Source: Flavobacteriaceae bacterium (GTDB lineage Bacteria; Bacteroidota; Bacteroidia; Flavobacteriales; Flavobacteriaceae). From it: a DNA stretch of 49,205 nucleotides. Position 1 is the stretch's first letter. Each line of letters opens with the position of its first letter. Both the position numbers and the translations under genes were made by a program. Positions 5,219-48,854 of this stretch are shown here, piece after piece. Below the pieces are notes generated by a model. That model did not search any database and was not told the DNA's origin. It worked only from the letters and a program-made list of their open reading frames with translations. The stretch spans positions 1 through 49,205 of the forward strand of contig JALSLI010000119.1 of NCBI GenBank assembly GCA_026988395.1. The letters are read 5' to 3'.

Positions 5219-5220
5219 AT

Positions 5221-11659: not shown

Positions 11660-12445
11660 CTCATATTCCACTTTATTTAAAATTAATCCGGAAGCCGGAG
11701 CTACAAAAGGTAAAGGACGATCAATATTGTGTTCTATTAAGGATTTTTTAATGAATTCCAATGTAATTTCTCCTTTACCTAAACGGAATAATGTTCCCAT
11801 TATTAATCGTACTTGATTGCGTAAAAATCCGCTACTTTTTATACGATAAACATACGATTTATCCGGAAAAAAATTAGCCGAGTAAATATCGTTTTCCACA
11901 ATTTCGCTTACCAATATTTCACGATTGTAATTTGCAAATTCGGTTGGTTTGGTACAGTAGTGTTTAAACCAATGTTTACCTTGAAATAATTTTGCCCCTT
12001 TTTTCATTAATTCTAAATCCAAATCTTCATAAAAACAAGTCATTACAGGTGCTGCAAACGGGTGAAATTTTTCTCCATAAGAAAAAAAATACAAATATTC
12101 TTTTACTTTTGAATCGGTTATTACATTAAATTTTTCATCTACTTCCTTTATGGAAAGAGCTTTAATATCGTTTGGTAAATTATGATTAAACAAGCTTAAA
12201 AAATCGGTTAAATCGGTTATTTCTTCGTATAAAAACAATTCCATCGGAAAATTGGTTGCCGAAACGCGTGCATCGGTTCTGCCCGAACCCAATACTTTGG
12301 TTTTTTCTTTTCCTAAAACGTGTTTTAAGGTTTTTTCAATTAATCCTTGCACGGTTTTTACATCAGGTTGTTTTTGAAATCCGTGTAAACGGAAACCTAA
12401 AAATTGCATATTAAGCAAATAGTAATATCGTTTTTTTTGTGACAT
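11654..12445 (-). CDS. truA: tRNA pseudouridine synthase A (TruA)
   Basis: This enzyme converts uridines 38-40 of tRNA anticodon arms to pseudouridine. The catalytic motif GSGRTDARVSA contains the nucleophilic Asp near residue 58, and RNQVRLIMGTLFRLGKG near 215 is a C-terminal signature. From MSQKKRYYY (12445) it has 263 residues; the track start at 12454 lies inside a TACATTTG promoter element, so it is unlikely. The 12445 start would leave almost no leader, and a later Met at 12409 would remove the first beta strand, so the exact start stays open. Confidence 0.88.
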   Translation of the reverse strand: MSQKKRYYYLLNMQFLGFRLHGFQKQPDVKTVQGLIEKTLKHVLGKEKTKVLGSGRTDARVSATNFPMELFLYEEITDLTDFLSLFNHNLPNDIKALSIKEVDEKFNVITDSKVKEYLYFFSYGEKFHPFAAPVMTCFYEDLDLELMKKGAKLFQGKHWFKHYCTKPTEFANYNREILVSEIVENDIYSANFFPDKSYVYRIKSSGFLRNQVRLIMGTLFRLGKGEITLEFIKKSLIEHNIDRPLPFVAPASGLILNKVEYEL

Positions 12446-12451
12446 ATCTTG

Positions 12452-12459
12452 CAAATGTA
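12452..12459 (-). promoter_or_regulatory. -7 promoter element TACATTTG for truA
   Basis: Exact TAnnTTTG on the minus strand overlapping the track's truA start. It faces an identical TACATTTG on the plus strand at 12485-12492, a compact divergent promoter. Confidence 0.45.
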
Positions 12460-32666: not shown

Positions 32667-34298
32667 CTATCCTAAAAACGGATATCTAAAATCGGTTGGT
32701 GGTACAAAATTTTCTTTAATTGTACGGTTTGAAACCCATCGTAATAAATTCCATATCGAACCTGCTTTGTCGTTTGTACCCGAACCTCTGGCTCCTCCAA
32801 ATGGTTGTTGCCCAACAACGGCTCCGGTTGGTTTATCGTTAATATAAAAATTACCTGCCGCATCTTCTAAGGCATCGGTTGCGTAATCTATTACATAACG
32901 ATCGTTACTAAAAATAGCTCCTGTTAAAGCATAAGGTGAAGTATTGTTTACCATTTCTAAGGTTTCTTTCCATTGCTCGTCATCGTAAACATAAACAGTC
33001 AAAATAGGTCCAAACAACTCGATTTGCATGGTTTTATACTGCGGATTGCTTGTTAAAATCACGGTTGGCTCAATAAAATATCCTTTTGAGTCATCGTAAT
33101 TTCCTCCCATTATTACCTCTGCTTCATCATCGCGTTTGGCATTTTCGATAAAATTAGTCAATTTTTCAAAGGCACGGTTGTCAATTACGGCGTTGATAAA
33201 ATTAGACGTATCATCCGGAGCTCCCATTTTCATTGCTTTTAAATCTTCTGCTAAAAAGTTTTTTACTTCGTTCCATTTTGATTTAGGAATGTAAGCTCTA
33301 GATGCAGCAGAACATTTCTGACCTTGGTATTCAAAAGCACCGCGGCTTAAAGCTGTTGCTACTTGTTTGGCATCTGCCGTATTGTGCATCCAAACAAAAT
33401 CTTTTCCGCCTGTTTCACCAACAATTCTTGGGTAAGAACGGTATTTTCCTTTTCGTACGTTTGTACCTATATTATCCCAAAAACTATTAAAAACACCTGT
33501 TGAACCTGTAAAGTGAATTCCGGCAAAATCTTTATGACCTAAAATAGTATCGGTAATCATTGCCGAATCTCCGGTAACCATATTAATCACACCGTCAGGC
33601 AAACCTGCGGCTTTAAATAATTCCATCAATACTTTGGCAGAATAAACTTGTGTTCTTGCCGGTTTCCAAACCACAACATTACCCATCATTGCGGGTGAAG
33701 CAGGTAAATTTCCGGCAATTGATGTAAAGTTAAATGGTGTAATGGCATACACAAAACCTTCTAACGGACGGTATTCCATTCTGTTCCAAATTCCGGGATC
33801 TGAAATTGGTTGATTTTCATAAATTTCAGTCATAAATTTTACGTTAAATCTAAAAAAGTCTATCAACTCGCAAGCTGCATCGATTTCGGCTTGCATTACG
33901 TTTTTAGATTGTGCAATCATCGTTGCAGCATTTATTTTTGCACGGAAAGGTCCGGCTAACAAATCGGCTGCTTTTAAAAAAATTGCCGCTCTGGATTGCC
34001 AAGGAGTTTTTGCCCATTTTTTACGAGCTTCCAAAGCTTTTTTTATTGCCAGATCAATGTGTTTTTTTTCTGCTTTATGGTATTTTCCTACCGTGTGTTT
34101 TATATCGTGCGGAGGATGAATAGAAACCGTATCTCCGGTTTTTATTTCTTCGCTACCAATGTAAAAAGGAATATCTACTTTTTCATTGTACATTTTATGG
34201 TATGTATCTAACAATTCCTTACGTTCTTTACTGTTTGGAGCGTAAGCCTTTACCGGTTCGTTTACCGGTGTTGGAACTTTATAAAATCCTGTTGCCAT
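32667..34298 (-). CDS. pruA: 1-pyrroline-5-carboxylate dehydrogenase
   Basis: A 543-residue aldehyde dehydrogenase that oxidises glutamate semialdehyde to glutamate in proline breakdown. Catalytic Cys lies in EYQGQKCSAASRAYIP near residue 330, the general base Glu in VGETGGKDFVWMH near 293, and the cofactor region includes FTGSTGVFNSFWDNIG. C-terminal FGGARGSGTNDKAG is typical of this subfamily. It stands alone (no proline dehydrogenase in the window) behind a good promoter. Confidence 0.95.
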   Translation of the reverse strand: MATGFYKVPTPVNEPVKAYAPNSKERKELLDTYHKMYNEKVDIPFYIGSEEIKTGDTVSIHPPHDIKHTVGKYHKAEKKHIDLAIKKALEARKKWAKTPWQSRAAIFLKAADLLAGPFRAKINAATMIAQSKNVMQAEIDAACELIDFFRFNVKFMTEIYENQPISDPGIWNRMEYRPLEGFVYAITPFNFTSIAGNLPASPAMMGNVVVWKPARTQVYSAKVLMELFKAAGLPDGVINMVTGDSAMITDTILGHKDFAGIHFTGSTGVFNSFWDNIGTNVRKGKYRSYPRIVGETGGKDFVWMHNTADAKQVATALSRGAFEYQGQKCSAASRAYIPKSKWNEVKNFLAEDLKAMKMGAPDDTSNFINAVIDNRAFEKLTNFIENAKRDDEAEVIMGGNYDDSKGYFIEPTVILTSNPQYKTMQIELFGPILTVYVYDDEQWKETLEMVNNTSPYALTGAIFSNDRYVIDYATDALEDAAGNFYINDKPTGAVVGQQPFGGARGSGTNDKAGSIWNLLRWVSNRTIKENFVPPTDFRYPFLG

Positions 34299-34339
34299 GG
34301 TTATTTATTTTTAAAAAAAATTAAACTAATTTTGCATTG

Positions 34340-34370
34340 CAAATTTACATCTTTTTAAACGGTTTAGCAA
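34340..34370 (-). promoter_or_regulatory. Promoter (TTG / TAAATTTG) of pruA
   Basis: On the minus strand TTG (34368-34370), a 20-nt spacer and TAAATTTG (34340-34347). This is the best match in the window to the full Bacteroidota promoter; leader about 40 nt. Confidence 0.65.
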
Positions 34371-34412
34371 CTCTAAATAAAAAGGATAAGATTTATTTAA
34401 CATTCAGATTTT

Positions 34413-35123
34413 ATGTGTACCGTAACTTATATTCCGATAAATAAAACAGACTTTATTTTAACTTCCAGTCGTGATGTGCCTTTTTCAAGGGAAGCTGCTA
34501 TGTTGCCGAAAGAATACACTGAAGATGGTGTAAAAATTACATATCCGAAAGATGGAAAAGCAGGTGGTACATGGATAGGCTACAGCAATAAAAATAGATT
34601 AATTTGCCTTTTAAACGGTGGTTTTACCAATCACGTGTCTAATGGAGAATACCGTAAAAGTAGAGGAATCGTTGTCAAAGAATTGTTGAAACAACGTGAT
34701 ATTTATTCCGCTTTAAGCGAAATAAACCTCCACAATATTGAACCTTTTACTTTGGTGATTGTAGATTGGAATGATTCGTTAAAATTAATTGAATTTGTTT
34801 GGAACGGCACCAAAAAATACCTTACCGATTTACCGCAAAAAATGCATATTTGGTCTTCGGCGACGCTGTATGACAAGCAAATGAAAAAGATGCGACAAGA
34901 ATGGTTTGCAGAATGGCAAAATTCGTTTTGTCCGAAGCATATTGAAAAGGATGAATTGTTTGATTTGTACAAAAAACGCATTTTTAATTTTCATAAAAAT
35001 GCCGGTATTGGCAATCCGGAAGTCGATGTTTTAATGCGACGAGAAAATGTTGGAACCGTTAGTATTACACAGGTAGCCAAAAAAAATAATTCGGCTGGTA
35101 TGGAGTATTTCATTCCGTCTTAG
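34413..35123 (+). CDS. TANGO2/NRDE family protein
   Basis: A 236-residue cytoplasmic protein of the NRDE (TANGO2-like) family, opening with MCTVTYIP and a Cys at position 2, as in Ntn-type proteins. The name-giving NRDE motif is here SSRD (TSSRDVPFSREAA near residue 18). GGTWIGYSNKNRLICLLNGG near 50 and EPFTLVIVDW near 110 are typical. Bacterial function is uncertain; the eukaryotic relative is linked to lipid and heme handling. Convergent with the DUF4837 gene, with 21 bp between stops. Confidence 0.88.
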   Translation: MCTVTYIPINKTDFILTSSRDVPFSREAAMLPKEYTEDGVKITYPKDGKAGGTWIGYSNKNRLICLLNGGFTNHVSNGEYRKSRGIVVKELLKQRDIYSALSEINLHNIEPFTLVIVDWNDSLKLIEFVWNGTKKYLTDLPQKMHIWSSATLYDKQMKKMRQEWFAEWQNSFCPKHIEKDELFDLYKKRIFNFHKNAGIGNPEVDVLMRRENVGTVSITQVAKKNNSAGMEYFIPS

Positions 35124-35144
35124 GTTTCTTTGTGGTTTTGGGTT

Positions 35145-36119
35145 TTACTTTTTTAATTTTAAAGTTTTAATAATAGATTCCAGCTCAAACATATAATTTC
35201 TTTTTTTAATATTTGGAGCATATACCAGGCCTTCGGCAACAATTAAACGGTTATTTTTTTTATCTACTAAAGTGTAGTTTACAAATGGTCCTGCCATAAA
35301 ATCATCGGTCATATACCAATTACCGCGTGTTTCATAGGTTTTTAAATTGGCTAATTTGGTTTCAATTTTTTCAGGAGTAAAATTCTTTTCAGTTAAAATA
35401 TGCATGCCTTCTTTGTCTCCGGGAATGTAATGTCCTTTTTCATCTCTTGCTTTAATGATATTTTCGCCATTTTCATCTTCGGGTGACGTTATTGGCAGTG
35501 TATAAACTAAAATATTAAGATAACCTTCGGGAATATCTCTAACAAACCAAACATATTCTTTATCATCGTGTGATTTTTGATATAAATACGGCACACGCAT
35601 TTCAACACCGTTTTCCTTAAAAAAGACTACGTTTTCGGGTTTGTAATAATTTTTACTTAAATGCATTTTCTGAAAAACCGCCATATCGCCTTTTTGAATT
35701 TCCTTAATGATTTCTTCGGCGTGTTTTTTAGTTATTTTTATGATGTCGTCTTTTGTTTTTCCTTTTATTTCGGCAACATACTGTGGTTTTGCATACACAT
35801 TTTTTCTACTAACAAAAGTATTTTTGTCACCTTGTTTTATAAAAATAATGTTACGATTTGCACGTAAAAAATCTGAGAAATTCCGTGGATCAATTTGGTT
35901 TAAATGTAAAACCGGTTCCGCTTGTGGTAACCCAACCATATCTCTTGCTAAAAATTTACGGATACTATCGCCTACTCGTCCTTGCCAATCATCATTATTA
36001 ATTACTACTAATGCGTGATTCATTCTTCCGGAAGAACTAATTAATAATTTTTTAGACTTTTTGTTGGAACAAGAAGTTAAAAGAACAACACTTAACAGAA
36101 TAAGAAATATTTTTTTCAT
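35145..36119 (-). CDS. DUF4837 family lipoprotein
   Basis: A 324-residue lipoprotein when started at MKKIFLILLSVVLLTSCSNKKSKK (36119); the track ORF adds 30 unlikely residues. The lipobox is LTSC. The body has SSGRMNHALVVINNDDWQGRVGDSIRKFLA near residue 30 and ends YETRGNWYMTDDFMAGPFVNYTLVDKKNNRLIVAEGLVYAP, matching DUF4837 as I recall it. Function unknown; it is common in Bacteroidota. It reads away from recJ, with a 127-bp inverted-repeat element between them. Confidence 0.8.
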   Translation of the reverse strand: MKKIFLILLSVVLLTSCSNKKSKKLLISSSGRMNHALVVINNDDWQGRVGDSIRKFLARDMVGLPQAEPVLHLNQIDPRNFSDFLRANRNIIFIKQGDKNTFVSRKNVYAKPQYVAEIKGKTKDDIIKITKKHAEEIIKEIQKGDMAVFQKMHLSKNYYKPENVVFFKENGVEMRVPYLYQKSHDDKEYVWFVRDIPEGYLNILVYTLPITSPEDENGENIIKARDEKGHYIPGDKEGMHILTEKNFTPEKIETKLANLKTYETRGNWYMTDDFMAGPFVNYTLVDKKNNRLIVAEGLVYAPNIKKRNYMFELESIIKTLKLKK

Positions 36120-36226
36120 AATAGAGATTTGAGTTGCTAAGATAACACAAAAAACATACCATTTACCTACAAAATTCACCATAATTCCTATTTTTACCAT
36201 ATACAACAAAATAAGTCAAGCAATTA

Positions 36227-36353
36227 AGCTGTAAATTTTATAATTTTATTGAGATTAAACTTGAGGGTGTTTGAATTTATCTTTATTCATCTGCTTCATT
36301 TCAGAACCTTCAAAATACTAAAGTATTCCTTCGGATTCTAAAATTTTACAGCT
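36227..36353. repeat. 127-bp element bounded by 14-bp inverted repeats
   Basis: AGCTGTAAATTTTA at the left end and TAAAATTTTACAGCT at the right end are near-perfect inverted repeats (one base insertion). Inside are a small palindrome AATACTAAAGTATT and CCTTCGGATTCT, with no ORF. It lies in the 344-bp gap between the divergent DUF4837 and recJ genes. It could be a miniature transposable element or a structured leader. Confidence 0.5.
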
Positions 36354-36408
36354 AAACAAAGCTAATTTCATGAATTTTTTCGATTAACCTAATGTTACCG
36401 AAAAAAAG

Positions 36409-36416
36409 TATCTTTG
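36409..36416 (+). promoter_or_regulatory. -7 promoter element TATCTTTG for recJ
   Basis: Exact TAnnTTTG, 47 nt before the recJ ATG and outside the inverted-repeat element. Confidence 0.5.
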
Positions 36417-36463
36417 CTAAAATTGCAAGAAATCAATAATACCATAAATAATATTTAGTTTAT

Positions 36464-38158
36464 ATGCGTTGGAATTTAACCGAAGAACCCAAATCTGAAA
36501 AAGTTGCACACTTATCAAAAGTTTTAAATGTTTCGCCTACAATTAGTAAACTTTTACTAAATAGAGGTATCGAAACCTACGAACAAGCACGTACTTTTTT
36601 TAGACCAAATTTGGCAGACTTACACGATCCTTTTTTAATGAAAGATATGGATTTGGCAGTACAACGTATTGAAAAAGCAATGAAATCAAACGAAAATATA
36701 ATGATTTATGGCGATTATGATGTTGATGGCACAACCTCGGTTTCATTGGTTTACAACTACTTAAGCAAACTTTATCCTAATTTAACCACATACATCCCTG
36801 ACCGTAATACCGAGGGTTATGGTATTTCTTATCAAGGAATTGATTTTGCTAACGATAACGATATTCGATTAATTATTGCTTTAGATTGTGGTATAAAAGC
36901 AATCGATAAGGTTAAATATGCAAAAGAAAAAGGAATTGATTTTATTATTTGCGACCACCACAGACCCGGAAATGAAGTTCCGGATGCAGTTGCTATTTTA
37001 AATCCAAAACAAAATACTTGTTCTTATCCTTACGATGAATTGTGCGGTTGTGGTATCGGATTTAAACTCGTTCAGGCAATACATCAAAAAAGAAAATTGG
37101 ATTTTAAGGAAATCATTCCGTATTTAGATTTGGTTGCTACAGCAATTGCCGCCGATATTGTGCCTATGAATGGCGAAAATCGTATTCTTGCTTATTTTGG
37201 ATTGCAAGTCATTAATAAAAATCCGCGTACCGGAATTAAAGCTTTGCTAAGCAGTATTAAAAAAGAAGAAATTACCATTACCGATGTTGTTTTTGTTGTT
37301 GCTCCAAGAATAAATGCCGCAGGAAGAATAAAATCCGGTAACGATGCTGTTGCATTATTAATTGAAGATAATTTAGAGGCTGCTGCCGAATTTGCTAAAG
37401 CGATTGAAAACCACAATATAGAACGTAAAGATTTAGATAAAAGAATTGCAAAAGAAGCCTTACAACAAATTAAAGAGAATAACGAAGAAGAACGTTTTAC
37501 CACAGTTGTTTATGATGAAAATTGGCATAAAGGCGTTATCGGAATTGTAGCATCCAGATTAATTGAAAAACATTACAGACCTACTTTGGTATTTACTAAA
37601 AGTGGAGATTTTTTAGCTGCTTCGGCCAGATCGGTTAAAGGTTTTGATGTGTATGAAGCTTTGGAAAAATCAAGTGAATTTATCGAGCAGTTTGGTGGAC
37701 ATAAATATGCGGCAGGTTTAACACTAAAACCGGAAAATTATGAAAAATTTAAAGCTAAATTTGAGCAGGTGGTAAAAGAAAGCATTCCCAAAGAATTGCT
37801 AATTCCTGAAATTAAAATTGATGCCGAAATAGATTTAACCGAAATCACTCCAAAATTAAACCGAATTATTAAACAATTTGCACCGTTTGGCCCACAAAAT
37901 ATGAAACCTGTTTTTGCAACAAGTAGTGTTCGTGATAATGGTTACGGCAAACCTGTTGGAGCAGATAAATCACATATAAAATTAAGTTTAATAGCAGGAT
38001 CTCATTTTAAAACATTTCCGGCAATTGGTTTTGGTCTAGCCGAAAAATTTGAACAACTTCCAAAAGGAAAAGGTTTTGATATTGCCTATACAATTGATGA
38101 AAACCACTGGAACAGAAACGTTACGTTACAATTGGTTTTAAAAGATTTGAAAGGGTAA
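36464..38158 (+). CDS. recJ: Single-stranded-DNA-specific exonuclease RecJ
   Basis: A 564-residue 5'-3' exonuclease acting in recombinational repair and mismatch excision. DHH-family motifs are in place: IYGDYDVDGTTSVSLVY near residue 80, IALDCGIKA near 140, ICDHHRPG near 160, and GCGIGFKLVQAIH. The DHHA1 part includes GVIGIVASRLIEKHYRPTLVF and SARSVKGFDVYEAL, with GGHKYAAGLTL near 410; an OB domain follows (KPVFATSSVRDNGYGKPVG). Length is typical. Confidence 0.96.
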   Translation: MRWNLTEEPKSEKVAHLSKVLNVSPTISKLLLNRGIETYEQARTFFRPNLADLHDPFLMKDMDLAVQRIEKAMKSNENIMIYGDYDVDGTTSVSLVYNYLSKLYPNLTTYIPDRNTEGYGISYQGIDFANDNDIRLIIALDCGIKAIDKVKYAKEKGIDFIICDHHRPGNEVPDAVAILNPKQNTCSYPYDELCGCGIGFKLVQAIHQKRKLDFKEIIPYLDLVATAIAADIVPMNGENRILAYFGLQVINKNPRTGIKALLSSIKKEEITITDVVFVVAPRINAAGRIKSGNDAVALLIEDNLEAAAEFAKAIENHNIERKDLDKRIAKEALQQIKENNEEERFTTVVYDENWHKGVIGIVASRLIEKHYRPTLVFTKSGDFLAASARSVKGFDVYEALEKSSEFIEQFGGHKYAAGLTLKPENYEKFKAKFEQVVKESIPKELLIPEIKIDAEIDLTEITPKLNRIIKQFAPFGPQNMKPVFATSSVRDNGYGKPVGADKSHIKLSLIAGSHFKTFPAIGFGLAEKFEQLPKGKGFDIAYTIDENHWNRNVTLQLVLKDLKG

Positions 38159-38258
38159 GTAAAATCTTTTTTTGTTTTGTTAAATATTAAGAGCTATATA
38201 TTTTTATTTAAAAAAATATAGGGTTTTTACTTTGTTAATCGTTCTATATTAAATAATA

Positions 38259-39038
38259 ATGATGAAAAAAATAGTTTTAACAATTTTAATAAGTTTAATA
38301 AGTTTAACTAATAATGCACAGATAACTGAAACAGATAATCAAATGTTTTGGGGAATTATCAGTCTAAGTAAAAAAGTTGATAAAAAAATAAGTGTAAGCT
38401 ATCTTCAATTAAACTCTATTGATATAAAAAGCGGGAAATTTAATTTTATTCAATCGGAATTTAGTCTTAATTATAAGTTAAAAAAACGCCTAATAACTTC
38501 TTTGGCATACTCGCCAACATTTTCTTTAGATGGTGTGCCTGGAAATCAACTTATTTATCACAGATTATCCGGAAAAATAAAATTAAAAACTAAAGTTTTA
38601 AAAAGACTTAATATGAATAATTCTATTGTTGGAGAATATCATTTTACACAAAGATCAAAATGGAAACAACGCTATTATTACAGATTAGATTTTGAATATA
38701 AAAATAACAGAAAGCTCCCTTGGAAAATGAAACCTTTTATATCTCAAAAAATTTATTGGTATCAAGGAGGTAGATTACTACAATACTATGACAATTTAGG
38801 AAATAAAACAGATTTAAAATCACCAAATGGTCTGCACGCTTACAGAGTTAAAACAGGTGTAAAATTATATCCATTAAAAAAATGGAATTTTACAATTTAC
38901 TATCAAAAACAAAAAGAATTTAATAGTTCCCTTTTTGGCTCTTCAGATATAAACAGTTTAAACCCTAATTCTAATAAAATAAGAAGATCATTTTACGATT
39001 TTTCTGTAATAGGATTTTCATGTAACTACAAACTATAA
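38259..39038 (+). CDS. DUF2490-like predicted outer-membrane beta protein
   Basis: A 259-residue protein with a signal peptide (1-21, ending NNAQ). The rest is alternating beta-type sequence rich in Lys and aromatic residues (SVSYLQLN, RYYYRLDFEYKNNRKLPWKMKPFISQ, WNFTIYYQKQ), ending FSCNYKL, consistent with a small outer-membrane barrel of the DUF2490 type. It is first in a compact four-gene plus-strand unit (13-bp gap to the P-loop gene). A role as the outer-membrane part of an export or uptake path is inferred from position only. A weak -7 (TTACTTTG) lies about 25 nt upstream. Confidence 0.65.
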   Translation: MMKKIVLTILISLISLTNNAQITETDNQMFWGIISLSKKVDKKISVSYLQLNSIDIKSGKFNFIQSEFSLNYKLKKRLITSLAYSPTFSLDGVPGNQLIYHRLSGKIKLKTKVLKRLNMNNSIVGEYHFTQRSKWKQRYYYRLDFEYKNNRKLPWKMKPFISQKIYWYQGGRLLQYYDNLGNKTDLKSPNGLHAYRVKTGVKLYPLKKWNFTIYYQKQKEFNSSLFGSSDINSLNPNSNKIRRSFYDFSVIGFSCNYKL

Positions 39039-39051
39039 AATACATCTTAAA

Positions 39052-40137
39052 ATGAGAAAAATTAAAAAAAGTATAATTACCAAAAGTATAAAAGATTTTA
39101 AAATAGATAGGTCTATTAAAAAAACCTACATCCCTAAACTAGGAGATGTTGCTGTTTTTCAAATATTATCTATTGGAAAACATAAAGCGGTACAAAGTGA
39201 AAAAGGGAATAATTCTTATATTTTTCCGGGGGATAAGATATTAGCAACATTTGGAACAAGGTATGCTTCTAACCAATTTGAAGGGTATTTACCAAAAAAG
39301 TATCATACTAAATACCAACTATTAGGTCAAGGAGGTGTTGTAGGTGTTTTAGAAAGTATGCATGCAAAATTTAAATATATTGGAGCTACCGAAGTAAGGC
39401 TTGTAGGATATGCAGTAGATGAAAAAGGAAATGTTTTAAACACTATTTATAACAATTACAAGCCCATTTCATTTAAACCTTTCAAAAAAAGAACCTATGA
39501 AATTTATCTTTCTGTTGGTGCTAGTATGGATAGTGGAAAAACTACAACAGCTGCATTTTTAAGTAGAGGATTAATGAAACAAAAGAAAAAAGTAGCTTTT
39601 ATTAAATTAACAGGGACAGTTTATGCAAAAGATTGTAGTTTTGTAAGAGATTGTGGTGCGAGAATGGCAATTGATTTTTCTTATTGTGGTTATCCTTCTA
39701 CTTTTTTATGTAAAACCAATGATATTTTAACAATTTTGGAAACTTTATTAAGTAGAGTAGAGCAAATAAATCCAGATGCCGTTGTAATTGAAATAGCTGA
39801 TGGTTTATTACAAAAAGAAACGAAAGCCTTAATAAATCACAAACCATTTATGGAAATTATTGACCATACAATATTATCGTGTGCAGATAGTTTATCCGTA
39901 AACAGTGGAGTAGAAATATTATCAAAAGTAGGCAATACTCCTACATTAATTACGGGTTTGTTTACTGCAAGTCCATTAATGATTAATGAAGTAAAGGAAA
40001 ATACTAGTATTCCTGTCTTCGATTTGGAAGATTTTATGAATAAAGAAATATTTAATAGTGTCTTTTCTCCAAAAGTTAAAAGCAATAGAATTAATGAAGT
40101 TAAACCAAAACAACAATTTAATAGTACAATTTCTTAA
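39052..40137 (+). CDS. P-loop NTPase with beta-rich N-terminal domain (DUF1611-like)
   Basis: A 361-residue cytoplasmic protein. The N-terminal part (about 25-145; GDVAVFQILSIGKHKAV, FPGDKILATFGTRYASNQFEGYLP) looks beta-rich and is not a Rossmann fold. The C-terminal part has a Walker A match ASMDSGKTT near residue 155, then VAFIKLTGTVYAKDCSFVRDCGARMAIDF, and VVIEIADGLLQKETKAL near 240 that may serve as Walker B. It resembles dethiobiotin-synthetase and DUF1611-type P-loop proteins. Function unknown. Its 3' end overlaps the ABC-like gene by 44 bp, so translation is coupled. Confidence 0.7.
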   Translation: MRKIKKSIITKSIKDFKIDRSIKKTYIPKLGDVAVFQILSIGKHKAVQSEKGNNSYIFPGDKILATFGTRYASNQFEGYLPKKYHTKYQLLGQGGVVGVLESMHAKFKYIGATEVRLVGYAVDEKGNVLNTIYNNYKPISFKPFKKRTYEIYLSVGASMDSGKTTTAAFLSRGLMKQKKKVAFIKLTGTVYAKDCSFVRDCGARMAIDFSYCGYPSTFLCKTNDILTILETLLSRVEQINPDAVVIEIADGLLQKETKALINHKPFMEIIDHTILSCADSLSVNSGVEILSKVGNTPTLITGLFTASPLMINEVKENTSIPVFDLEDFMNKEIFNSVFSPKVKSNRINEVKPKQQFNSTIS

Positions 40138-41707
40138 ACAAAGAAAATGGGAGACTGTTAGAATTATTATTTTTGGTATTATTTCTAATATTTTAAGTAT
40201 TTTAATTCCTGTTAGTATAGGTAAGTATTACGAATTAGTGTTTCATTTAAATACAAGAAGAGTAAAATCTCTGAGCATAATCCCTGATGAATTTTGGGAT
40301 ACACCTTCTAAGTTTTTAATATTTTTTTCTGTACTGATAATTATTAGATTTGCTTTTTTCTTTCTTTACGAATATTCCCTACGTAAAGAGGCTATAATAT
40401 TTATAAAAGAAATAAAAGACTTTCTTTTCGGTCATCAATTAAAAGTAAAATACACGATATATAAAGAAAAAGGAATAGGCAAATATCTTTTGAGATATTC
40501 AGGAGATATTAACAGCCTTAAAAATCTATACATAAAAGGAACAATACGCGTTTTTATTGATGTAATTATGATTGTAATTGCTCTTTATTGGTTGTGGATT
40601 CTAAATAGAAATGGAGCAATTGCAATCTTATTGCTTTCTTCTTTATTTTATTTAATACTTCGTCTAATAAATAAAAAATTAGAATTTTATTCCATCTTAA
40701 AAAGAAATAAAACTTCAGGTCAACTTTCTTTTGTTAGTAGAAGTTTAAACAGTATCTTAAACATCAAAATACTAAACAAACAGAATGTTGAATTAAAAAA
40801 ATATAAAAAAAAATCTAACAGCATAAAAAATGCTTCTATTGTTTACACAAAATGGTTCGTTATAAATAAAGGTTTTATTTCTTTTATTCAATACACGATT
40901 CTAAGTGTTATTTTATATATATTTTATAAGGACTCAATAGAAAATGGAGAAACAGGTAGTCATTTAATTAGTTTTATTCTACTGTATATTACAATATTAC
41001 CCGTTATTCGTAGACTTTTTTCTTTAGAATCAGTATATAAATTAGGTAACATTTCTCTTAAAAAATTAAATAACATCCTCCAACTCGATGTTGATGCTAT
41101 AAATAAAGGAGAAACTTTAACTATTTCGAATCCAACCATTGCTTTTGAAAATGTTGTCTTTCAAAATAATTTCAAAAATCCAATTAACTTTATTGCTAAA
41201 AAAAATAATCTTAATATTTTATTTTTACCCAAAGGAATAAGTTCTTTAGATATAATATATACTATTTTAAAAATTAACAGTATTTATTCCGGCGACATTA
41301 AAATAAACAAAATATCCATTAGAAAATATTCTCCTAAATCATTACGAAATCAAATTGCAATTGCATCACAATATGTACCAATTTATGGGAGGACTGTTTA
41401 TGAAGCTATAACTAAATACAGGTCTAAAAGAATTAAAAAAGAATTATTAAGTTTGTATGAATCTATAAGAGCCCCTTTTAGTGAACATATAAAACTAAAA
41501 CTAGATAATACTATTGGGGAAAATGGTTCAAAGTTATCTAAAATTGAAATAGAATTTTTAGCTTTGGTACGAGGTATAATACAAAAAAAACGAATTATAA
41601 TTGCTAGTGAATTTCCATTACTTAAATCTATAAATAAAATTGAATTATTTAACATCTTAAAAAAACAAAAGGCTACAGTTATTTTAATAAAACAGAAAAA
41701 AAATTAA
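40094..41707 (+). CDS. ABC-exporter-like protein with degenerate ATPase domain
   Basis: A 537-residue protein when started at ATG 40094 (MKLNQNNNLIV); the track uses GTG 40058, also possible. Residues 1-320 hold about six membrane segments typical of type I ABC exporters. The nucleotide domain (about 345-537) keeps the shape but not the chemistry: the Walker A place reads FLPKGISSLDIIYTI without the Gly-Lys-Ser/Thr; Walker B reads RIIIASEFP with Ser for Asp; the signature place reads GSKLSKIEIEFLALVRG; and the switch His place reads VILIKQK. The Q-loop Gln (IASQYVP) remains. A homodimer should not hydrolyse ATP. It overlaps the P-loop gene and abuts the peptidase gene. Confidence 0.8.
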   Translation: MKLNQNNNLIVQFLKQRKWETVRIIIFGIISNILSILIPVSIGKYYELVFHLNTRRVKSLSIIPDEFWDTPSKFLIFFSVLIIIRFAFFFLYEYSLRKEAIIFIKEIKDFLFGHQLKVKYTIYKEKGIGKYLLRYSGDINSLKNLYIKGTIRVFIDVIMIVIALYWLWILNRNGAIAILLLSSLFYLILRLINKKLEFYSILKRNKTSGQLSFVSRSLNSILNIKILNKQNVELKKYKKKSNSIKNASIVYTKWFVINKGFISFIQYTILSVILYIFYKDSIENGETGSHLISFILLYITILPVIRRLFSLESVYKLGNISLKKLNNILQLDVDAINKGETLTISNPTIAFENVVFQNNFKNPINFIAKKNNLNILFLPKGISSLDIIYTILKINSIYSGDIKINKISIRKYSPKSLRNQIAIASQYVPIYGRTVYEAITKYRSKRIKKELLSLYESIRAPFSEHIKLKLDNTIGENGSKLSKIEIEFLALVRGIIQKKRIIIASEFPLLKSINKIELFNILKKQKATVILIKQKKN

Positions 41708-41708
41708 T

Positions 41709-42731
41709 ATGATAAAATTTTCACCAATACTATTTTCTATTTTCATTTTTTTTAACAGTTTTTATACTTCTAAAAAAATAAAAAATAGAAAAACATATAT
41801 AATAGCAATTCATGGAGGAGCCGGAACAATTAAAAAAAAGAATATGACTCCTGAATTAGAAAAAAAATATCTTGAGACACTAAAAAAAGCACTAAAAAAA
41901 GGAGAAGACCATTTAAAAAAAGGAGGGACTGCAATTCAAACAGTGGAGTTAGTAATTAAAATTTTAGAAGATTCTCCTCTCTTTAATGCTGGGAAAGGTG
42001 CTGTATTTAATCATAATGGTTATCAAGAAATGGATGCTTCTATAATGGATGGTAAAAATCTAAATTGTGGTGCAATATCAGGTATTACAAACTTAAAAAA
42101 CCCAATTGAAGGTGCCCGGATTGTAATGGATTCTACCAAACATGTTTTTTTATATGGGAAAAGAGCTCAAGACTTTTGTATAAAAAAAGGTGCTGTTTAT
42201 GCAGATAGTAGCTATTTTTTTACAAAAAACAGATGGGAGCAATTTCAAAGAGCATTAAAAAAAAATACAATTGAATTAGATCATGATGGCAAAAATAAAA
42301 CTGAAAGTGATATTAAAAAATTTGGTACCGTAGGTTGTGTTGTTAAGGATATATATGGTAATCTAGCCGCAGGAACCTCAACAGGAGGTCTAACCAATAA
42401 GAAATATGGGAGAATTGGCGATTCTCCAATTATTGGAGCTGGAAATTATGCAGATAATAATTCTTGTGCAATATCCTGTACCGGAACTGGTGAATACTTT
42501 ATCAAAGGAACAATAGCAAGAGACGTAGCTGCACTTTACCAATTTAAAAATATTTCTTTAAAAAAAGCTGCAAAAAAAACAATGAAAAAATTAAATAAAC
42601 TTGGCGGTAGAGGCGGTTTTATTGCTGTAGATAAAAACGGAAAGTATATTTTAGTTTTTAACACTAGAGGGATGTTTAGAGGTGTCGCTAATTCCAATGG
42701 AATTTTTGATATAAAAATATATAAAAATTAA
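41709..42731 (+). CDS. Isoaspartyl peptidase / L-asparaginase, exported
   Basis: A 340-residue Ntn-hydrolase paralogous to 2737-3792. The N-terminal hydrophobic segment (ILFSIFIFFNSFY) lacks a lipobox Cys, so the enzyme is secreted or N-terminally anchored in the periplasm. HGGAGT, GKGAVF and MDASIM precede the cleavage site KKFGTVGC with Thr207 as nucleophile, then GTSTGG and IGDSPIIGAGNYADN. All key residues remain, so activity is expected. It starts one base after the ABC-like gene's stop and ends the four-gene unit, which suggests it processes or digests the transported substrate. Confidence 0.9.
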   Translation: MIKFSPILFSIFIFFNSFYTSKKIKNRKTYIIAIHGGAGTIKKKNMTPELEKKYLETLKKALKKGEDHLKKGGTAIQTVELVIKILEDSPLFNAGKGAVFNHNGYQEMDASIMDGKNLNCGAISGITNLKNPIEGARIVMDSTKHVFLYGKRAQDFCIKKGAVYADSSYFFTKNRWEQFQRALKKNTIELDHDGKNKTESDIKKFGTVGCVVKDIYGNLAAGTSTGGLTNKKYGRIGDSPIIGAGNYADNNSCAISCTGTGEYFIKGTIARDVAALYQFKNISLKKAAKKTMKKLNKLGGRGGFIAVDKNGKYILVFNTRGMFRGVANSNGIFDIKIYKN

Positions 42732-42984
42732 CTGATTTGGTCTAACTCCCTATTAATCGGACTAATTTTTTTTGAATATCATCTTAAATCCGCAAAAGTA
42801 TTTCTACTGTAAAGCCAAACGGCACGTCATTATGGCTTTTAGCCCTTTTTCGGGGTTTTATTTCTATAAAAATATAAAATAATCATTTGATTTACAAGTG
42901 ATTATTTACTTGCGAAAGTACCTAAATACAACGGCTAAATATTTTTTACGTTTTGATTTTATTTCTTTTACAGATGCCAATCTT
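42732..42984. other. Structured gap after the P-loop/ABC-like unit
   Basis: These 253 bp contain no gene. They hold three possible stems: AAAGCCA/TGGCTTT near 42816-42843, GCCCTTTTTCGGGG near 42841, and AATAATCA/TGATTATT near 42879-42907. On the minus strand TACTTTTG (in CCGCAAAAGTA, near 42792) matches the -7 consensus and TACTTTCG (near 42916) nearly so. It may contain the unit's terminator and remnants of a mobile element or small RNA. Confidence 0.35.
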
Positions 42985-44340
42985 TTATTCCTTAATCAAT
43001 TTTAATTTTAACTGTTTGTTATCTCTTATAATTCTTAAAAAATAAACACCTGTTTTTAAATATGAAATATCAATGCTTTCGGTTTCGAATTTAGCATTAT
43101 AAACGCGTTTTCCTTGCAAGTCGAAAATAGAAAGTAAACTTCCGGTAAGATCTTCTTTGGTTTGGATGTTTAATCTATTTTTAACCGGATTAGGATAAAT
43201 AGAAACTGTATTTAATAACGATTCATCTGTTTTAAGTGGTGCCATTCCTTCGGTTATTTGAACGGTGGAATTAATCTGTGGATTTTCAATTTGATCCACA
43301 TTTCCGGAAGGCCAATAAACCGTAACTCTGTCTATGGAAGTATTATCGGCAATACCAAAATGTGTGTTTAAAGAACCCATATGTCTAAACCCTACACCAC
43401 TTTTTACATCGCGAATCTGTACTCCTAATGCGGATTCTATTTCTACTCTTGCACCAATACCATTTCGGTTACTCTGTACTCCAATGGTATTGATTTTTAA
43501 CCAATTATTAGTATTTCCTTGATTAATGTGTAAATCAACGTTAAAATAATCTAAGAATCCATCGTTATTGATATCACCAACAGCTCCATCACCAAAACCA
43601 ACATTATAGGGCGAAAAAGTCATATCACCGTTATTAAACATAATTGTTTGTCCTGCTCCTAAAACATCTACATAGCCATCGTTGTTAAAGTCATAACAAA
43701 CATTTTCGATACTGGTTGGTGTAAAGGTATCAAAACCGGAACCTGCAGTAACATCGGTAAACGTTCCGTCACCATTATTTCTTGCTAATTTATGTGCACC
43801 GGAACTCGCACCTACAAACACATCTATATCGCCGTCATTATCGAAATCTGCCCAAGCAGAAGACCAAGTTTGCATTGGATCACGAAGGTTGGCATCTGCA
43901 CCAATTTCAGTAAAAGTACCATCGCCGTTATTGCGATATAGTTGATCGCTGCTTCGCTCTGCACTTCCTCCGCATTTAGCAATAAACATATCGATATCAT
44001 GATCGTTATCATAATCTATCCAAACCGAACCATAGTTTCCTCCGGAAAAATAATCTGCTAAGCCCAGACCACCGGATTCGTTGGATTTATGATATTCTAA
44101 ATTACCGTTACCATCGCCGTAATAATATACACTTGGCTCTACATCATGACAGACAAAAGCTTCCAAGTTTCCATCGTTATTTATATCTACAAAATTAGAT
44201 CTTTGTGAAAAAACATATACATTATTATGCCATTCGGTATAAGCCGTACCATTATTATTTGCAATCATAAAACTAACACCACTACCATTTCCATATAACA
44301 GATCATTATAGCCGTTACCATCTAAATCACCTGCTGCCAT
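42985..44340 (-). CDS. FG-GAP/ASPIC repeat protein, C-terminal fragment with type IX sorting domain
   Basis: This 451-residue ORF begins at an internal Met (MAAGDLDGNGYNDLLYGNG) and is the downstream part of a gene broken by an in-frame TAA at 44566-44568; the frame is open from there. It has FG-GAP/VCBS repeats (DFDNDGDIDVFVG, DFNNDGYVDVLG, DINNDGFLDYFN), an ASPIC/UnbV domain (NRNGIGARVEIES, VTVYWPSGNVDQIENPQ) and a C-terminal sorting domain (SIYPNPVKNRLNIQ ending LKLKLIKE) that marks type IX secretion substrates. Without the N-terminal signal peptide this fragment alone cannot be exported. Confidence 0.85.
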   Translation of the reverse strand: MAAGDLDGNGYNDLLYGNGSGVSFMIANNNGTAYTEWHNNVYVFSQRSNFVDINNDGNLEAFVCHDVEPSVYYYGDGNGNLEYHKSNESGGLGLADYFSGGNYGSVWIDYDNDHDIDMFIAKCGGSAERSSDQLYRNNGDGTFTEIGADANLRDPMQTWSSAWADFDNDGDIDVFVGASSGAHKLARNNGDGTFTDVTAGSGFDTFTPTSIENVCYDFNNDGYVDVLGAGQTIMFNNGDMTFSPYNVGFGDGAVGDINNDGFLDYFNVDLHINQGNTNNWLKINTIGVQSNRNGIGARVEIESALGVQIRDVKSGVGFRHMGSLNTHFGIADNTSIDRVTVYWPSGNVDQIENPQINSTVQITEGMAPLKTDESLLNTVSIYPNPVKNRLNIQTKEDLTGSLLSIFDLQGKRVYNAKFETESIDISYLKTGVYFLRIIRDNKQLKLKLIKE

Positions 44341-44565
44341 ACTCCAAGTTGCTTCGTAAGTTGCTGTAGGCGTTGTAATAGTTTGATGGTTTAAACTACC
44401 GTTTGTTGTTTGATAATGTACATCAATTTGCGTGGTAGAAGTCGTTACTAAATCATCTAAAAAATCACCGTTTAAGTCAAAAAAACCATAAGGTCGCCCT
44501 AAATCGGATACTGTTTGAGATGCAAAAGTTACTACACCTTCCGGTGGTGGTGGTGTAACGTGCTC

Positions 44566-44994
44566 TTACACTAAGAAATCAAAAGTGTTAATTTGCCAAC
44601 GGTTATCCCAAACAATATAATATGTTGTATTTGCGATAACATTAAACGTTTTTACACTTAAATAACCGATTCCGGAATCGTCGTCTCCCGAAAGACAAAC
44701 CAAATTGGCACAGCTACCTGTGTAAACGTAAAAATTAGTATCTATACCTTGACCTTGATTTTGCGTTAAATTGGATGTTACCATAATTTCCATATCCTGT
44801 GGTGCCGTAAAGACATACCATTCTGCCACATTCCCTAAATTTCCGGAAGTACAAGCGGTAGGAGCCGGATTTCCGTCAATAGTATTTACATGATATACTG
44901 TTTCTAAAGAAATGTTAATAGCATCTTGACAGGTATTTTGTGCATAAATAAAACTCGAAAATAAAAAGAGGGAAAAAAAGTAAAACTGTTTCAT
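44566..44994 (-). CDS. Same gene, N-terminal fragment (signal peptide and Ig-like domain), ends at TAA
   Basis: A 142-residue ORF starting at MKQFYFFSLFLFSSFIYAQ (44994; the track starts 5 codons earlier). The signal peptide ends FIYAQ; a domain with CQDAINISLE, ACTSGNLGNVAEWYVFTAP and YTGSCANLVCLSGDDDSG resembles the PPC-like domains found at the N terminus of many flavobacterial secreted proteins. It stops at FDFLV-TAA, exactly in phase with the downstream fragment (228 bp to the internal Met, and the linker reads EHVTPPPPEGVVTFASQ). One base change would restore a protein of about 668 residues. Confidence 0.8.
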   Translation of the reverse strand: MKQFYFFSLFLFSSFIYAQNTCQDAINISLETVYHVNTIDGNPAPTACTSGNLGNVAEWYVFTAPQDMEIMVTSNLTQNQGQGIDTNFYVYTGSCANLVCLSGDDDSGIGYLSVKTFNVIANTTYYIVWDNRWQINTFDFLV

Positions 44995-45047
44995 AATATT
45001 TAATTGCATTAAAGGAATTCAAATATAATCAAATTTTTGTAATTCAA

Positions 45048-46130
45048 CTAATTACAATTATTTTCTAATGAATTGATCCAATTTTCAATTAAAGTAATGG
45101 CTTCTGTATGGAGTAAATTTCTTCCTTTTAAAGGCATTCTTACGGTTTCATCTATTGTGTTTAAACGATAAAACAAAACCGAGCGATCAGGTCGTTGCGG
45201 ACTAACAATATGTGATAATCCCGGAGCATCACCAATAGGTTCTTGGTGCACGATGCAAATACCTAGATTATCCGGATTACTGGTTTTATTAAAAGCAAAT
45301 CGCATGGAACGATAATTGCAATAACCATTATCAGAATGGCAATGAGCACAATTAATATCTAAATAAGCTCGCACTCTATTGTTTAAAGATTGTGTTTGAT
45401 CGTGCCAATTTACAACAGTATTAATCGTGTTTGGATAATTTGGTTCTAAATACCCAAAATCTCGCCATTTATCCAATTGATTTTTAGTTTCGTTGGTATA
45501 ATTATAGTTCCAATTTATATTTTGTGGTTTTGGTCCTATTGGTTTTGGATTATCATTAGATTGATGGCAAGTAAGACAATCAGCTCCGGGAGGAATTCGG
45601 TATTCTACGTGTTTGGTTTCTCCGTTGTGCATAAAATCTACCGGAATATTCACTCCGGACATAATATAAGATGCATCGGTTTGTGAATCATTCCATTGGT
45701 ATGTAGCAAAAACCCAATAATCAGTTTTTTTAATCATTAGACGAGTTTCAATTATTTTGGTATTGTGATTTGGTAATATATCATTATAATAAAAATTTTT
45801 AATTAGAATAGTACCTGTAGGAAAATTAAAAGGCTCAAAATCGGTTATATATTTAGCTTTTACACCTTGTGGCATCCAAATAAATCTTTTTTTATCGGCA
45901 TAATCGGTAAATAATTTATTAATCAGATTATATGGTAAAACACCGTAAACAGGTTTTAAATCGGCAATATTTCCTTCAAAAAAGTTGTATTCGCTTAAAT
46001 TAGCGTAAGGCATTTCTGATAAATTATAATTTACAGGAGAAGTTTCTGTGTCTGGATTTTCATCATTTTCTTTACAAGAGGAAAAAGTCAAAATTATTAC
46101 CGTTATTAAAAAGAAAAATTTATACATCAA
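45048..46130 (-). CDS. Diheme c-type cytochrome lipoprotein (HNE_0200/SO_2930-like)
   Basis: A 360-residue lipoprotein (lipobox FSSC) with two CxxCH heme-binding motifs, CLTCH near residue 198 and CAHCH near residue 268. GADCLTCHQSNDNPKPIGPKPQNINWNY and RPDRSVLFYRLNTIDETVRMPL are characteristic of a family of diheme proteins that I recall as TIGR03806-like. A redox or electron-transfer role outside the inner membrane is expected; the partner is unknown. It is just upstream (38 bp or more) of the broken secreted repeat protein on the same strand. Confidence 0.85.
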   Translation of the reverse strand: MMYKFFFLITVIILTFSSCKENDENPDTETSPVNYNLSEMPYANLSEYNFFEGNIADLKPVYGVLPYNLINKLFTDYADKKRFIWMPQGVKAKYITDFEPFNFPTGTILIKNFYYNDILPNHNTKIIETRLMIKKTDYWVFATYQWNDSQTDASYIMSGVNIPVDFMHNGETKHVEYRIPPGADCLTCHQSNDNPKPIGPKPQNINWNYNYTNETKNQLDKWRDFGYLEPNYPNTINTVVNWHDQTQSLNNRVRAYLDINCAHCHSDNGYCNYRSMRFAFNKTSNPDNLGICIVHQEPIGDAPGLSHIVSPQRPDRSVLFYRLNTIDETVRMPLKGRNLLHTEAITLIENWINSLENNCN

Positions 46131-46202
46131 AAAAAATTATTCCCAAATTTAAGAAAAAAAATAGAAGTAATTTTCCATATTGCTGAAAATGAATCATAAA
46201 AG

Positions 46203-46229
46203 AACCACATCTATAAAATAAATGTGGTT
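46203..46229 (-). terminator. Hairpin after asnB
   Basis: AACCACAT and ATGTGGTT pair with an 11-nt loop, 36 nt past the asnB stop, then a short T-rich tract on the minus strand. Confidence 0.5.
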
Positions 46230-46264
46230 TAAAAAGAATTTTCTCCCCAAAAAATTCGATATTA

Positions 46265-47878
46265 TTAAGCTACTTTTTCTTTGGCAATGTGTACATCTGC
46301 TTTAATATGTTTTTTGTTTGCTCTACCACTTGGGTCGGTATTTTCTTGCCATTTAGGAATCCATTTTAACACTGTTTTTGCGGCATCATCTTGTGGGAAA
46401 TGTTTATGAAAAATTTCTCTAATATAATATGCTTCCTTAGTACTTGGTGTGTTGTGTGGATATTTTATATGTGCCTGACTCATTTGTTCGTCAGTTATTT
46501 GGTTGGCACAATATTCTATTAAGGTATCAATCCAACTATAACCAACACCATCTGAAAATTGCTCTTTTTGGCGCCAAAGTACTTCTTGCGGTAAAAAAGG
46601 ATCTTCTTTGGTATCGAAAGCTTTTCTTAAAATATATTTTTCAACACCATCATATGTTTCGTGCATTTTATATTTTGGTTGTGTTTTCATAATTACATCT
46701 AAAAATTCTTTATCTAAAAATGGAACTCTTGCTTCTAAGCCATGGGACATTGTTGATTTATCAGCACGTAAACAGTCACTGGTAGAGAGTAATTGTACTC
46801 TTCTAATGGTTTCTTTTTGAAATTCTTTATTTGATGGAGCATCTCCAAAATATAAATATCCTCCTAGCATTTCGTCTGCTCCTTCGCCACTTAACACTAC
46901 TTTTACACCTAAATTTGTTATGTATTTACTCATAATATACATTGGTGTAGATGCTCGTATGGAGGTTACATCATAGGTTTCTAAGTGCCAAATTAATTTA
47001 TCGATAACTTCTAAACCTTCTTCAATAGTAAAGGTAATTGCGTGATGCTTTGTACCTAAAAAATCGGCTACTTTTTGAGCTGCTTTCAAATCCGGAGAAT
47101 CACTATCTAATCCGATAGAAAAAGAATGTAGTTCTTTACCTTCTTCTTTTAATAAACGGCTTGCAATGGAAGATGTTAAAGAAGAATCCAAACCTCCGGA
47201 AAGTAAAACACCTAACGGTACATCTGTCATTAATCTTTTTTTGGTTGCTTTAATTAATGTATCACGTATTAGCTTTAAATCTAATTCTTCGGTTGCAACA
47301 GAGTCTTTAAACCAATCCGGTTTGTAATAACGCACTAATCCGGTTTTAGGCGTATAGTAATGTCCAGGAGGAAATGCCTCAAAAGAAACACATTGATCTG
47401 CAATTGCTTTCATTTCGGATGAAAAATACAATCTATCATCGGCATCTTTTCCATAATATAGCGGTTTTATACCAATTGGATCACGTCCTGCAATAAAATC
47501 ATCACCATCAATTACCACAAAGGCAAAGACACCATCTAATTTGTTTAAAAAATCATATCCGTACTTTTCATAAAGATGAACAATTACTTCGGAGTCGGAT
47601 TTTGTTCTGAATTTATGGTCTTTTAATTCGGTTTCACGCAATTCTTTATGGTTATAAATCTCTCCATTATGTACCATATATGCGGTACTACAACCTTGTA
47701 TTGGTTGCTTACCGGTATGTAAATCAATTATAGACAAACGCTCGTGAGCTAAAATATGCCCGTTTTCAGTAACCTGAATGTCGTGTTCATTTGGTCCGCG
47801 ATGATTCATTCTATTTGATAGTTGTTTCGCTTTTTGTAATTCTACCCCTTTTCCGATGATTGCTAAAATTCCGCACAT
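46265..47878 (-). CDS. asnB: Glutamine-hydrolysing asparagine synthetase
   Basis: A 537-residue enzyme that makes asparagine from aspartate, glutamine and ATP. The mature protein would begin with the catalytic Cys after Met removal (MCGILAIIGKG), and NHRGPNEH and MVHNGEIYNHKELR are glutaminase-domain motifs. The synthetase domain has the PP-loop LLSGGLDSSLTSS near 225, SIGLDSDSPD and LSGEGADEMLGGYLYFGDAP near 340. Length fits the family. The start at MCGI is certain because the Cys must be N-terminal. Confidence 0.97.
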   Translation of the reverse strand: MCGILAIIGKGVELQKAKQLSNRMNHRGPNEHDIQVTENGHILAHERLSIIDLHTGKQPIQGCSTAYMVHNGEIYNHKELRETELKDHKFRTKSDSEVIVHLYEKYGYDFLNKLDGVFAFVVIDGDDFIAGRDPIGIKPLYYGKDADDRLYFSSEMKAIADQCVSFEAFPPGHYYTPKTGLVRYYKPDWFKDSVATEELDLKLIRDTLIKATKKRLMTDVPLGVLLSGGLDSSLTSSIASRLLKEEGKELHSFSIGLDSDSPDLKAAQKVADFLGTKHHAITFTIEEGLEVIDKLIWHLETYDVTSIRASTPMYIMSKYITNLGVKVVLSGEGADEMLGGYLYFGDAPSNKEFQKETIRRVQLLSTSDCLRADKSTMSHGLEARVPFLDKEFLDVIMKTQPKYKMHETYDGVEKYILRKAFDTKEDPFLPQEVLWRQKEQFSDGVGYSWIDTLIEYCANQITDEQMSQAHIKYPHNTPSTKEAYYIREIFHKHFPQDDAAKTVLKWIPKWQENTDPSGRANKKHIKADVHIAKEKVA

Positions 47879-48065
47879 AATGTATTGTTTTAAATTCTAT
47901 GCAAATAACGACATAAGATTACATATCGAAAATACATTTGCATATATTAACTTCACATTATAACTAATAAATAGTTTTTTTAATGTTTATGCAAGTAAAT
48001 ATATAGAATAATTCTAAAAAAGTTTAAAAATGTAAATTTTGACAAAATTAGTTGCGAATATTAAC

Positions 48066-48073
48066 TAGTTTTG
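48066..48073 (+). promoter_or_regulatory. -7 promoter element TAGTTTTG for the ZIP gene
   Basis: Exact TAnnTTTG, 16 nt before the ATG. A TTGAC lies 24 nt upstream, slightly far for a -33 element. Confidence 0.45.
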
Positions 48074-48089
48074 TTTAAAATTCAATTTT

Positions 48090-48854
48090 ATGTTTCAACA
48101 CGATACAATTCAAGTTTTTCTTTATGCATTAATTACGGCTATTGCTACCGGTTTTGGAGCCATTCCTTTTGCCTTTATTAAAAAAATTACGCCAAAAGTT
48201 ATGGGAATATCTAATGCAATAGCAGCAGGACTAATGGTTGGTGCAACTTTTATGTTAATTATGGAAGGTGCAAATGAGAATTTTCTAAAAACAATTGTTG
48301 GGATGGCAATTGGATTGGTTTTTATATTAGGCATAGAAGTACTGTTAGACAAATTTGAACACAAACATGATGATTCGCCTTCTTTTTTAGTAAATAAACA
48401 CGGTTTTTTTAAAAATTTTAAAAAAGCTATTATTATCATTATCGTAATGACAGCACATTCTGCCGCTGAAGGTATTGGATTAGGAACTTCGTTTGGAGGA
48501 AATTTAAAATTTGGTTTAATGATGACCATCGCTATTGCCATTCATAATATCCCGGAAGGCTTAGCTATTAGTGCTAGTTTGGTTGCCAAGGGGGTTTCTT
48601 GGTGGAAAGCTGCTCTTTGGAGTATTTTTACCTCTTTACCACAACCTATTTTTGCAGTTCCTGCCTATTTGTTTATCTCCTATTTTAAACAATATTTACC
48701 AGTTGGATTAGGTTTTGCTGCCGGAGCAATGCTATGGGTTGTCTTTAGTGATATTGTGCCTGAATCACAAGAAAATTTAGATGAAAAAAAATCGGCTACA
48801 ATTATTAGTCTTGCAATTATAGTAATGTTGCTGTTTCAGTATTTATTGGATTAA
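48090..48854 (+). CDS. ZIP-family metal transporter
   Basis: A 254-residue inner-membrane protein with about eight membrane segments that moves zinc or other divalent metals into the cytoplasm. The two central metal-binding helices show HSAAEG near residue 128 and HNIPEG near residue 152, the ZIP-family signatures. A short His/Asp-rich stretch (EHKHDD) lies in the loop before them. It is a single gene; substrate selectivity cannot be read from sequence. Confidence 0.93.
   Translation: MFQHDTIQVFLYALITAIATGFGAIPFAFIKKITPKVMGISNAIAAGLMVGATFMLIMEGANENFLKTIVGMAIGLVFILGIEVLLDKFEHKHDDSPSFLVNKHGFFKNFKKAIIIIIVMTAHSAAEGIGLGTSFGGNLKFGLMMTIAIAIHNIPEGLAISASLVAKGVSWWKAALWSIFTSLPQPIFAVPAYLFISYFKQYLPVGLGFAAGAMLWVVFSDIVPESQENLDEKKSATIISLAIIVMLLFQYLLD

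Follow-up and report, generated by a model that had tools for sequence, protein, structure and literature searches.

The window, as we call the 49,205-nucleotide stretch of Flavobacteriaceae DNA analysed here, encodes a 537-residue ABC-exporter homolog (positions 40094..41704, with the stop codon to 41707; this gene, its operon neighbours and the features within them all lie on the plus strand), recognized from its open frame, its Pfam matches, and its PDB relatives. Alignments and gene order show that this ABC protein belongs stably to a family of its own, linked by its operon: its gene lies directly 3' of one for a P-loop NTPase whose Walker A motif is intact. Members of the family have repeatedly lost catalytic motifs of the nucleotide-binding domain (NBD), and one of them lacks the domain altogether. 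Many bacteria have retained the pump intact next to this partner enzyme despite the loss of the parts that burn ATP. The reading we prefer, to which we give an even chance, is that of a membrane protein of ABC-exporter fold with a dead ATPase domain, selected for its transmembrane domain (TMD), that would move the product of its partner without an ATPase of its own.

Reading frame, motif state and selection

The ABC gene runs through 537 codons without a stop or frameshift. The N-terminal part of its product matches Pfam ABC_membrane (residues 24–299, E = 4e-23, 82.9 bits against a cut-off of 28) and contains six hydrophobic segments by hydropathy, starting at residues 24, 74, 153, 174, 260, and 291, so that both the intact frame and the well-kept six-helix region of the original prediction hold. 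These matches, together with sequence identities, define the TMD (residues 1–338; 40094..41107) as the better conserved half; the remainder (residues 339–537; 41108..41704) is a truncated and, by its motifs, catalytically dead NBD that scored 19.8 bits against ABC_tran, below the curated cut-off of 25. MsbA, Sav1866, and PCAT1 are the best PDB relatives by sequence, and a fold search with the AlphaFold model returned the same set. The models of the ABC protein and of the P-loop partner were built from three-sequence alignments; that of the ABC protein is good in the NBD (pLDDT ∼80) and poor in the TMD, which explains the low whole-chain fold scores.

We tabulated the NBD motifs of 20 family members and 13 canonical exporters. 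In alignment with the latter, the window protein has LPKGISSL at the Walker A position (41225..41248; canonical GATGAGKS), LSKIE at the signature (41534..41548; canonical LSSGQ), and IIIASE- at Walker B (41594..41611; canonical ILILDEA), where the Asp has become Ser. The D-loop reads PLLK (canonical SSID), and the H-switch position holds Gln rather than His and is followed by 3 residues, compared to 45–52 in canonical proteins, the C-terminus being short by about 40 residues. The set that marks a working ATPase (Walker A GxxGxGK(S/T), LSGGQ, Walker B Asp, D-loop, and switch His) is therefore not found in this protein. The motif loss is not a matter of chance, since Walker A and the H-switch are present in 29 of 29 canonical ABC exporters from related genomes. 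The claim that Walker A, the Walker B aspartate, the signature, and the switch histidine are all altered is borne out, with two small refinements: the window protein retains Glu at the position of the catalytic glutamate that follows Walker B, and the Q-loop position is Gln. Two orthologs retain “DE” at Walker B, and the Q-loop position is N, K, T, or L in close orthologs.

Five close orthologs were found in Flavobacteriaceae: in Aquaticitalea lipolytica (L032), in a Flavobacteriaceae metagenome-assembled genome (L033), and in genomes G002, G087, and G157, with G002 the only other sampled member of the genus to carry the operon. All five are uninterrupted, 531–539 residues long, as degenerate as the window protein and devoid of Walker A, and encoded in conserved gene order directly 3' of the same P-loop gene. 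TMD identity exceeds NBD identity in 15 of 15 close pairs (e.g., 62/45), and the six-helix core is 58–78% identical among close orthologs. This is the reverse of normal exporters, since in canonical exporters the NBD is the more conserved domain in 399 of 406 pairs, with a mean gap of 16.6 points. Between orthologs, dN/dS (NG86) was 0.07–0.16 for the TMD and 0.19–0.49 for the NBD, rough values because dS is near or past saturation and the orthologs are not strain-level relatives; saturation also made YN00 estimates unusable for nearly all pairs. On these estimates the gene is under purifying selection, with a constraint on the NBD that is weaker than that on the TMD but not neutral. A decaying pseudogene would account for the faster evolution of the NBD and for the loss of its motifs and C-terminus, but not for dN/dS well below 1 in both domains, for frames open in the window and in all five close orthologs, or for a conserved operon position. 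Of the two outcomes that the original prediction named as speaking for decay, dN/dS near 1 and disrupted orthologs, neither was observed in the related genomes, and we rejected decay on the dN/dS values and the intact orthologs, leaving it next to no probability.

The operon and its P-loop enzyme

The ABC gene comes third in a conserved operon. The first gene (38259..39038) encodes a secreted protein that resembles DUF2490 (Pfam E = 3e-5, below the cut-off) and is predicted to be an outer-membrane barrel; in 13 other Bacteroidia loci, too, a DUF2490-like gene lies upstream of that for the P-loop protein. The second (39052..40137) encodes a P-loop NTPase distantly related to DUF1611, with sub-threshold matches to DUF1611, CbiA, and AAA_26, and overlaps the ABC gene by 44 bp. 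The last (41709..42731) encodes an isoaspartyl peptidase of the asparaginase_2 type (Pfam Asparaginase_2 E = 5.5e-106, 354.6 bits against a cut-off of 27) with an N-terminal signal sequence. A peptidase gene of this kind lies directly 3' of the ABC gene in L032, L071, L069, and L083, and is not adjacent to it in every locus. The signal sequence is present in loci with the ABC gene and absent in three loci without it (L070, L072, and L091), a pattern that fits a product crossing the membrane. The modules of these three loci (L070 7917–9907, L091 8200–10190, and L072 2150–4134) consist of the P-loop gene followed directly by the peptidase gene, have neither ABC nor DUF2490 genes, and look like a cytoplasmic version.

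The partner's Walker A (GASMDSGKTT) is intact in the window, and the motif is conserved in 24 of 24 homologous loci. The partner scored 12.3 bits against Pfam DUF1611 (cut-off 25; best family member, E = 0.00036) and is 25–33% identical to DUF1611 proteins of Flavobacteriaceae and Rhodobacterales. It shares the P-loop region and the overall length with DUF1611/DgcN proteins but falls below the Pfam cut-off, forms a separate clade on the tree, and, unlike them, is paired with an ABC gene and with an isoaspartyl peptidase or an alpha/beta hydrolase. A gene for a dipeptide epimerase, the partner of DgcN in its pathway, was not seen in the P-loop/ABC loci. The low-confidence model of the partner resembles enzymes of the dethiobiotin synthetase, SRP, and MinD type. 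On a Microvirga ossetica plasmid (L094 4905–6668), one DUF1611-like match falls within a long gene that carries a transposase annotation.

Several further genes were seen around the pair. An alpha/beta hydrolase gene adjoins it where the isoaspartyl peptidase does not (L084 1616–2596, L093 4018–4860, L096 5063–5863, and L097 5005–5874) and perhaps supplies an alternative hydrolase of the same pathway. The window holds a second isoaspartyl peptidase gene (2737–3843, minus strand), 54% identical to that of the operon and adjoined by a gene for a secreted 567-residue protein, and, near the operon, a gene for an FG-GAP repeat protein (42985–44340, minus strand; ASPIC/UnbV by Pfam), of which a similar-looking counterpart lies near the pair in Tritonibacter (L097 3288–4835). 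Proteins with long stretches rich in Asp are encoded near the pair in L067 (3195–4565, an S8 subtilase by Pfam), L097 (9875–11350), L089 (6187–7461), and L068 (12197–13300), and S8 peptidases and ECF sigma factors also recur on the Paracoccus plasmids. HTTM and DCC1/DUF393 domains adjoin the pair as a fused gene in the Bacteroidia locus L067 (10022–11353) and as two genes in Paracoccus albus (L093 1248–3116). NCBIfam gave the ABC protein a weak match to a cyanophycin-associated ABC transporter, which, with the second isoaspartyl peptidase gene, raised the idea of a link to cyanophycin; no cyanophycin gene was found among the ORFs listed at window positions 1–12454 or 32667–48854, and we dropped this link.

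A family in several NBD states

Our searches, most of which used the P-loop protein as query, covered a total of about 1,700 genomes and found its homologs patchily distributed in Bacteroidia. An ABC gene lies 3' of the P-loop gene in 16 other Bacteroidia loci, directly so in 15, where the two genes mostly overlap or lie within 30 bp of each other. Counting that of the window, 16 ABC proteins were of sufficient length for comparison, and they form one clade against generic exporters on a TMD-only tree (support 100/100). A tblastn search of plasmids placed the pair, with adjacent genes, in the Alphaproteobacteria Sulfitobacter, Paracoccus, and Tritonibacter as well.

Walker A is kept in L082, L083, L065, L067, L084, and L085, survives as a near-Walker A GKN in L066, and is lost in the window clade, L087, and L089. 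Because these seven Bacteroidia members and the Sulfitobacter homolog keep Walker A or a near-Walker A, part of the family may still use ATP. Among Bacteroidia members, the Q-loop column holds Gln in the window protein and L087 only, and a switch His in recognizable context occurs only in L067, the His aligned there in L032 being part of an unconserved tail. All Bacteroidia members are shortened at the C-terminus; L088, of 349 residues, ends just after the TMD, and we found no NBD remnant downstream of it in three forward frames. The NBD of the Sulfitobacter homolog is essentially intact but lacks the Q-loop Gln, and the NBDs of the Paracoccus albus, P. liaowanqingii, and Tritonibacter mobilis homologs are dead. 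The family can be arranged as a series that starts with the intact NBD of Sulfitobacter, continues with NBDs in which the Q- and H-loops are broken and then with NBDs that have no Walker A, and ends with L088, in which the whole domain is absent.

The minimum number of Walker A state changes was three on the Bacteroidota TMD tree and four on both the P-loop tree and the TMD tree that includes Alphaproteobacteria. By this reckoning Walker A was lost at least four times, a minimum count on uncertain trees whose deep forks are unresolved and on which L087, L088, and L089 form long branches of unsure placement; L085, which keeps Walker A, and L087, which has lost it, are joined on the P-loop tree at 96/93. 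Separate lineages have lost catalytic motifs and yet retained the gene pair. The sequences support the original prediction of selection for a non-ATPase role rather than decay, the nature of that role being our interpretation.

The most conserved stretch of the family is GKYLLRYSGD at the first coupling helix (residues 129–138; 40478..40507), which is preserved even in the NBD-less L088 and whose core LR(Y/F)xGD recurs in the Alphaproteobacteria members. The P-loop partner could be an ATPase acting in trans, docked on the coupling helices and driving transport so that the native NBD was free to decay. The conservation of this stretch where no NBD remains would suit such docking, as would two genes that are always adjacent and often overlap and a Walker A kept in all 24 partner loci and lost repeatedly in the ABC proteins. 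We nevertheless consider it unlikely, because the partner is also present where the NBD is intact (Sulfitobacter), occurs beside the isoaspartyl peptidase in loci with no ABC gene and so has a function of its own, and resembles in its low-confidence model the enzymes named above rather than a transport ATPase.

Proposed role and comparison with known systems

The family has repeatedly lost the ATPase but kept the TMD, the gene order, and the partner. This, with the conserved coupling-helix stretch and the pattern of the peptidase signal sequence, leads us to propose a transporter or handler of the P-loop enzyme's product that works without ATP of its own. A homodimer of the TMD would pass a small product of the P-loop enzyme, probably acidic or of aspartyl type, across the inner membrane. 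There, the isoaspartyl peptidase with its signal sequence and the DUF2490 barrel would act on it or pass it on. The movement would not be powered by the protein's own NBD, which, where present, may be a remnant with a structural or docking function. The coupling-helix region, conserved as it is, may now serve the TMD gates or contact the P-loop partner. As energy sources we considered both an ion gradient and the partner. No acidic transmembrane residue comparable to the glutamate ladder of SbmA was seen to be conserved across the whole family in the sequence comparison, and proton drive consequently lacks direct sequence support.

The failure to find conserved proton-relay residues, the lost motor, and the tight linkage to the gene of a soluble enzyme would also suit a protein that no longer transports and serves the P-loop enzyme as a membrane anchor, scaffold, or regulator. 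This is an improbable alternative in our estimate, as the whole six-helix core is kept at the identities given above and an operon with a secreted hydrolase and an outer-membrane barrel suggests that something crosses the membrane.

In a bolder reading, which we hold to be less likely than not, the family would be a living series of an ABC exporter in the course of switching its energy source, with Sulfitobacter still using the NBD and L088 having none. Transport would have been taken over by an ion gradient or else by the P-loop NTPase of the operon, working in trans through the conserved coupling helices, and the NBD would, whichever the source, have become dispensable several times independently. 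How an ABC transporter is retained when its motor is lost is an open question for which this family offers cases. For SbmA, a tree served to infer the intermediates of motor loss (PMC13316013). In the present family, one syntenic gene pair includes versions that are intact, half-broken, dead, or NBD-less, so that a change of energy source or function can be compared side by side. In the literature searched we found no description of a P-loop/ABC pair with a secreted isoaspartyl peptidase, only unrelated mentions of DUF1611 and DUF2490.

The window protein shares with the type IV ABC exporters (MsbA, Sav1866, and PCAT1) a six-helix TMD followed by an ABC-fold domain, but differs from them in lacking Walker A, the signature, the switch His, and the C-terminal part of the NBD, and in having an NBD less conserved than its TMD. 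With the degenerate-site heterodimers (TM287/288, TAP, and MsRv1273c/72c) it shares a catalytically impaired NBD. To our knowledge, the known degenerate halves of heterodimeric exporters retain ATP binding; in the family described here, not just single catalytic residues but Walker A itself and, in L088, the whole domain have disappeared. That the window protein is one half of a heterodimer of the TM287/288 or TAP type, in which a canonical half gives the working ATP site, would agree with the degenerate NBDs known from such transporters (PMC12038006) and with the one canonical exporter encoded elsewhere in the genome. The extent of the loss makes it very unlikely, however, and the operons examined contain no second half-transporter gene, which removes an adjacent partner half from consideration.

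The SbmA/BacA (SLiPT) peptide transporters, proposed to originate from an ABC transporter minus its NBD (PMC13316013), have an ABC-exporter-type TMD that works, as that of the window protein would, without an ATPase of its own. Sequence features nevertheless place the window protein outside the SbmA/BacA family: it has an NBD remnant where those proteins have no NBD and an extra TM0, it gave no Pfam SbmA_BacA match, and, unlike SbmA/BacA, it keeps the coupling-helix region and is coupled to a P-loop gene. No glutamate ladder was seen in the sequence comparison. The window protein is also probably an exporter, whereas SbmA/BacA is an importer. Among ABC-exporter TMDs that lack a motor, SbmA/BacA is nonetheless the closest precedent, and the window protein may resemble it in working without one.
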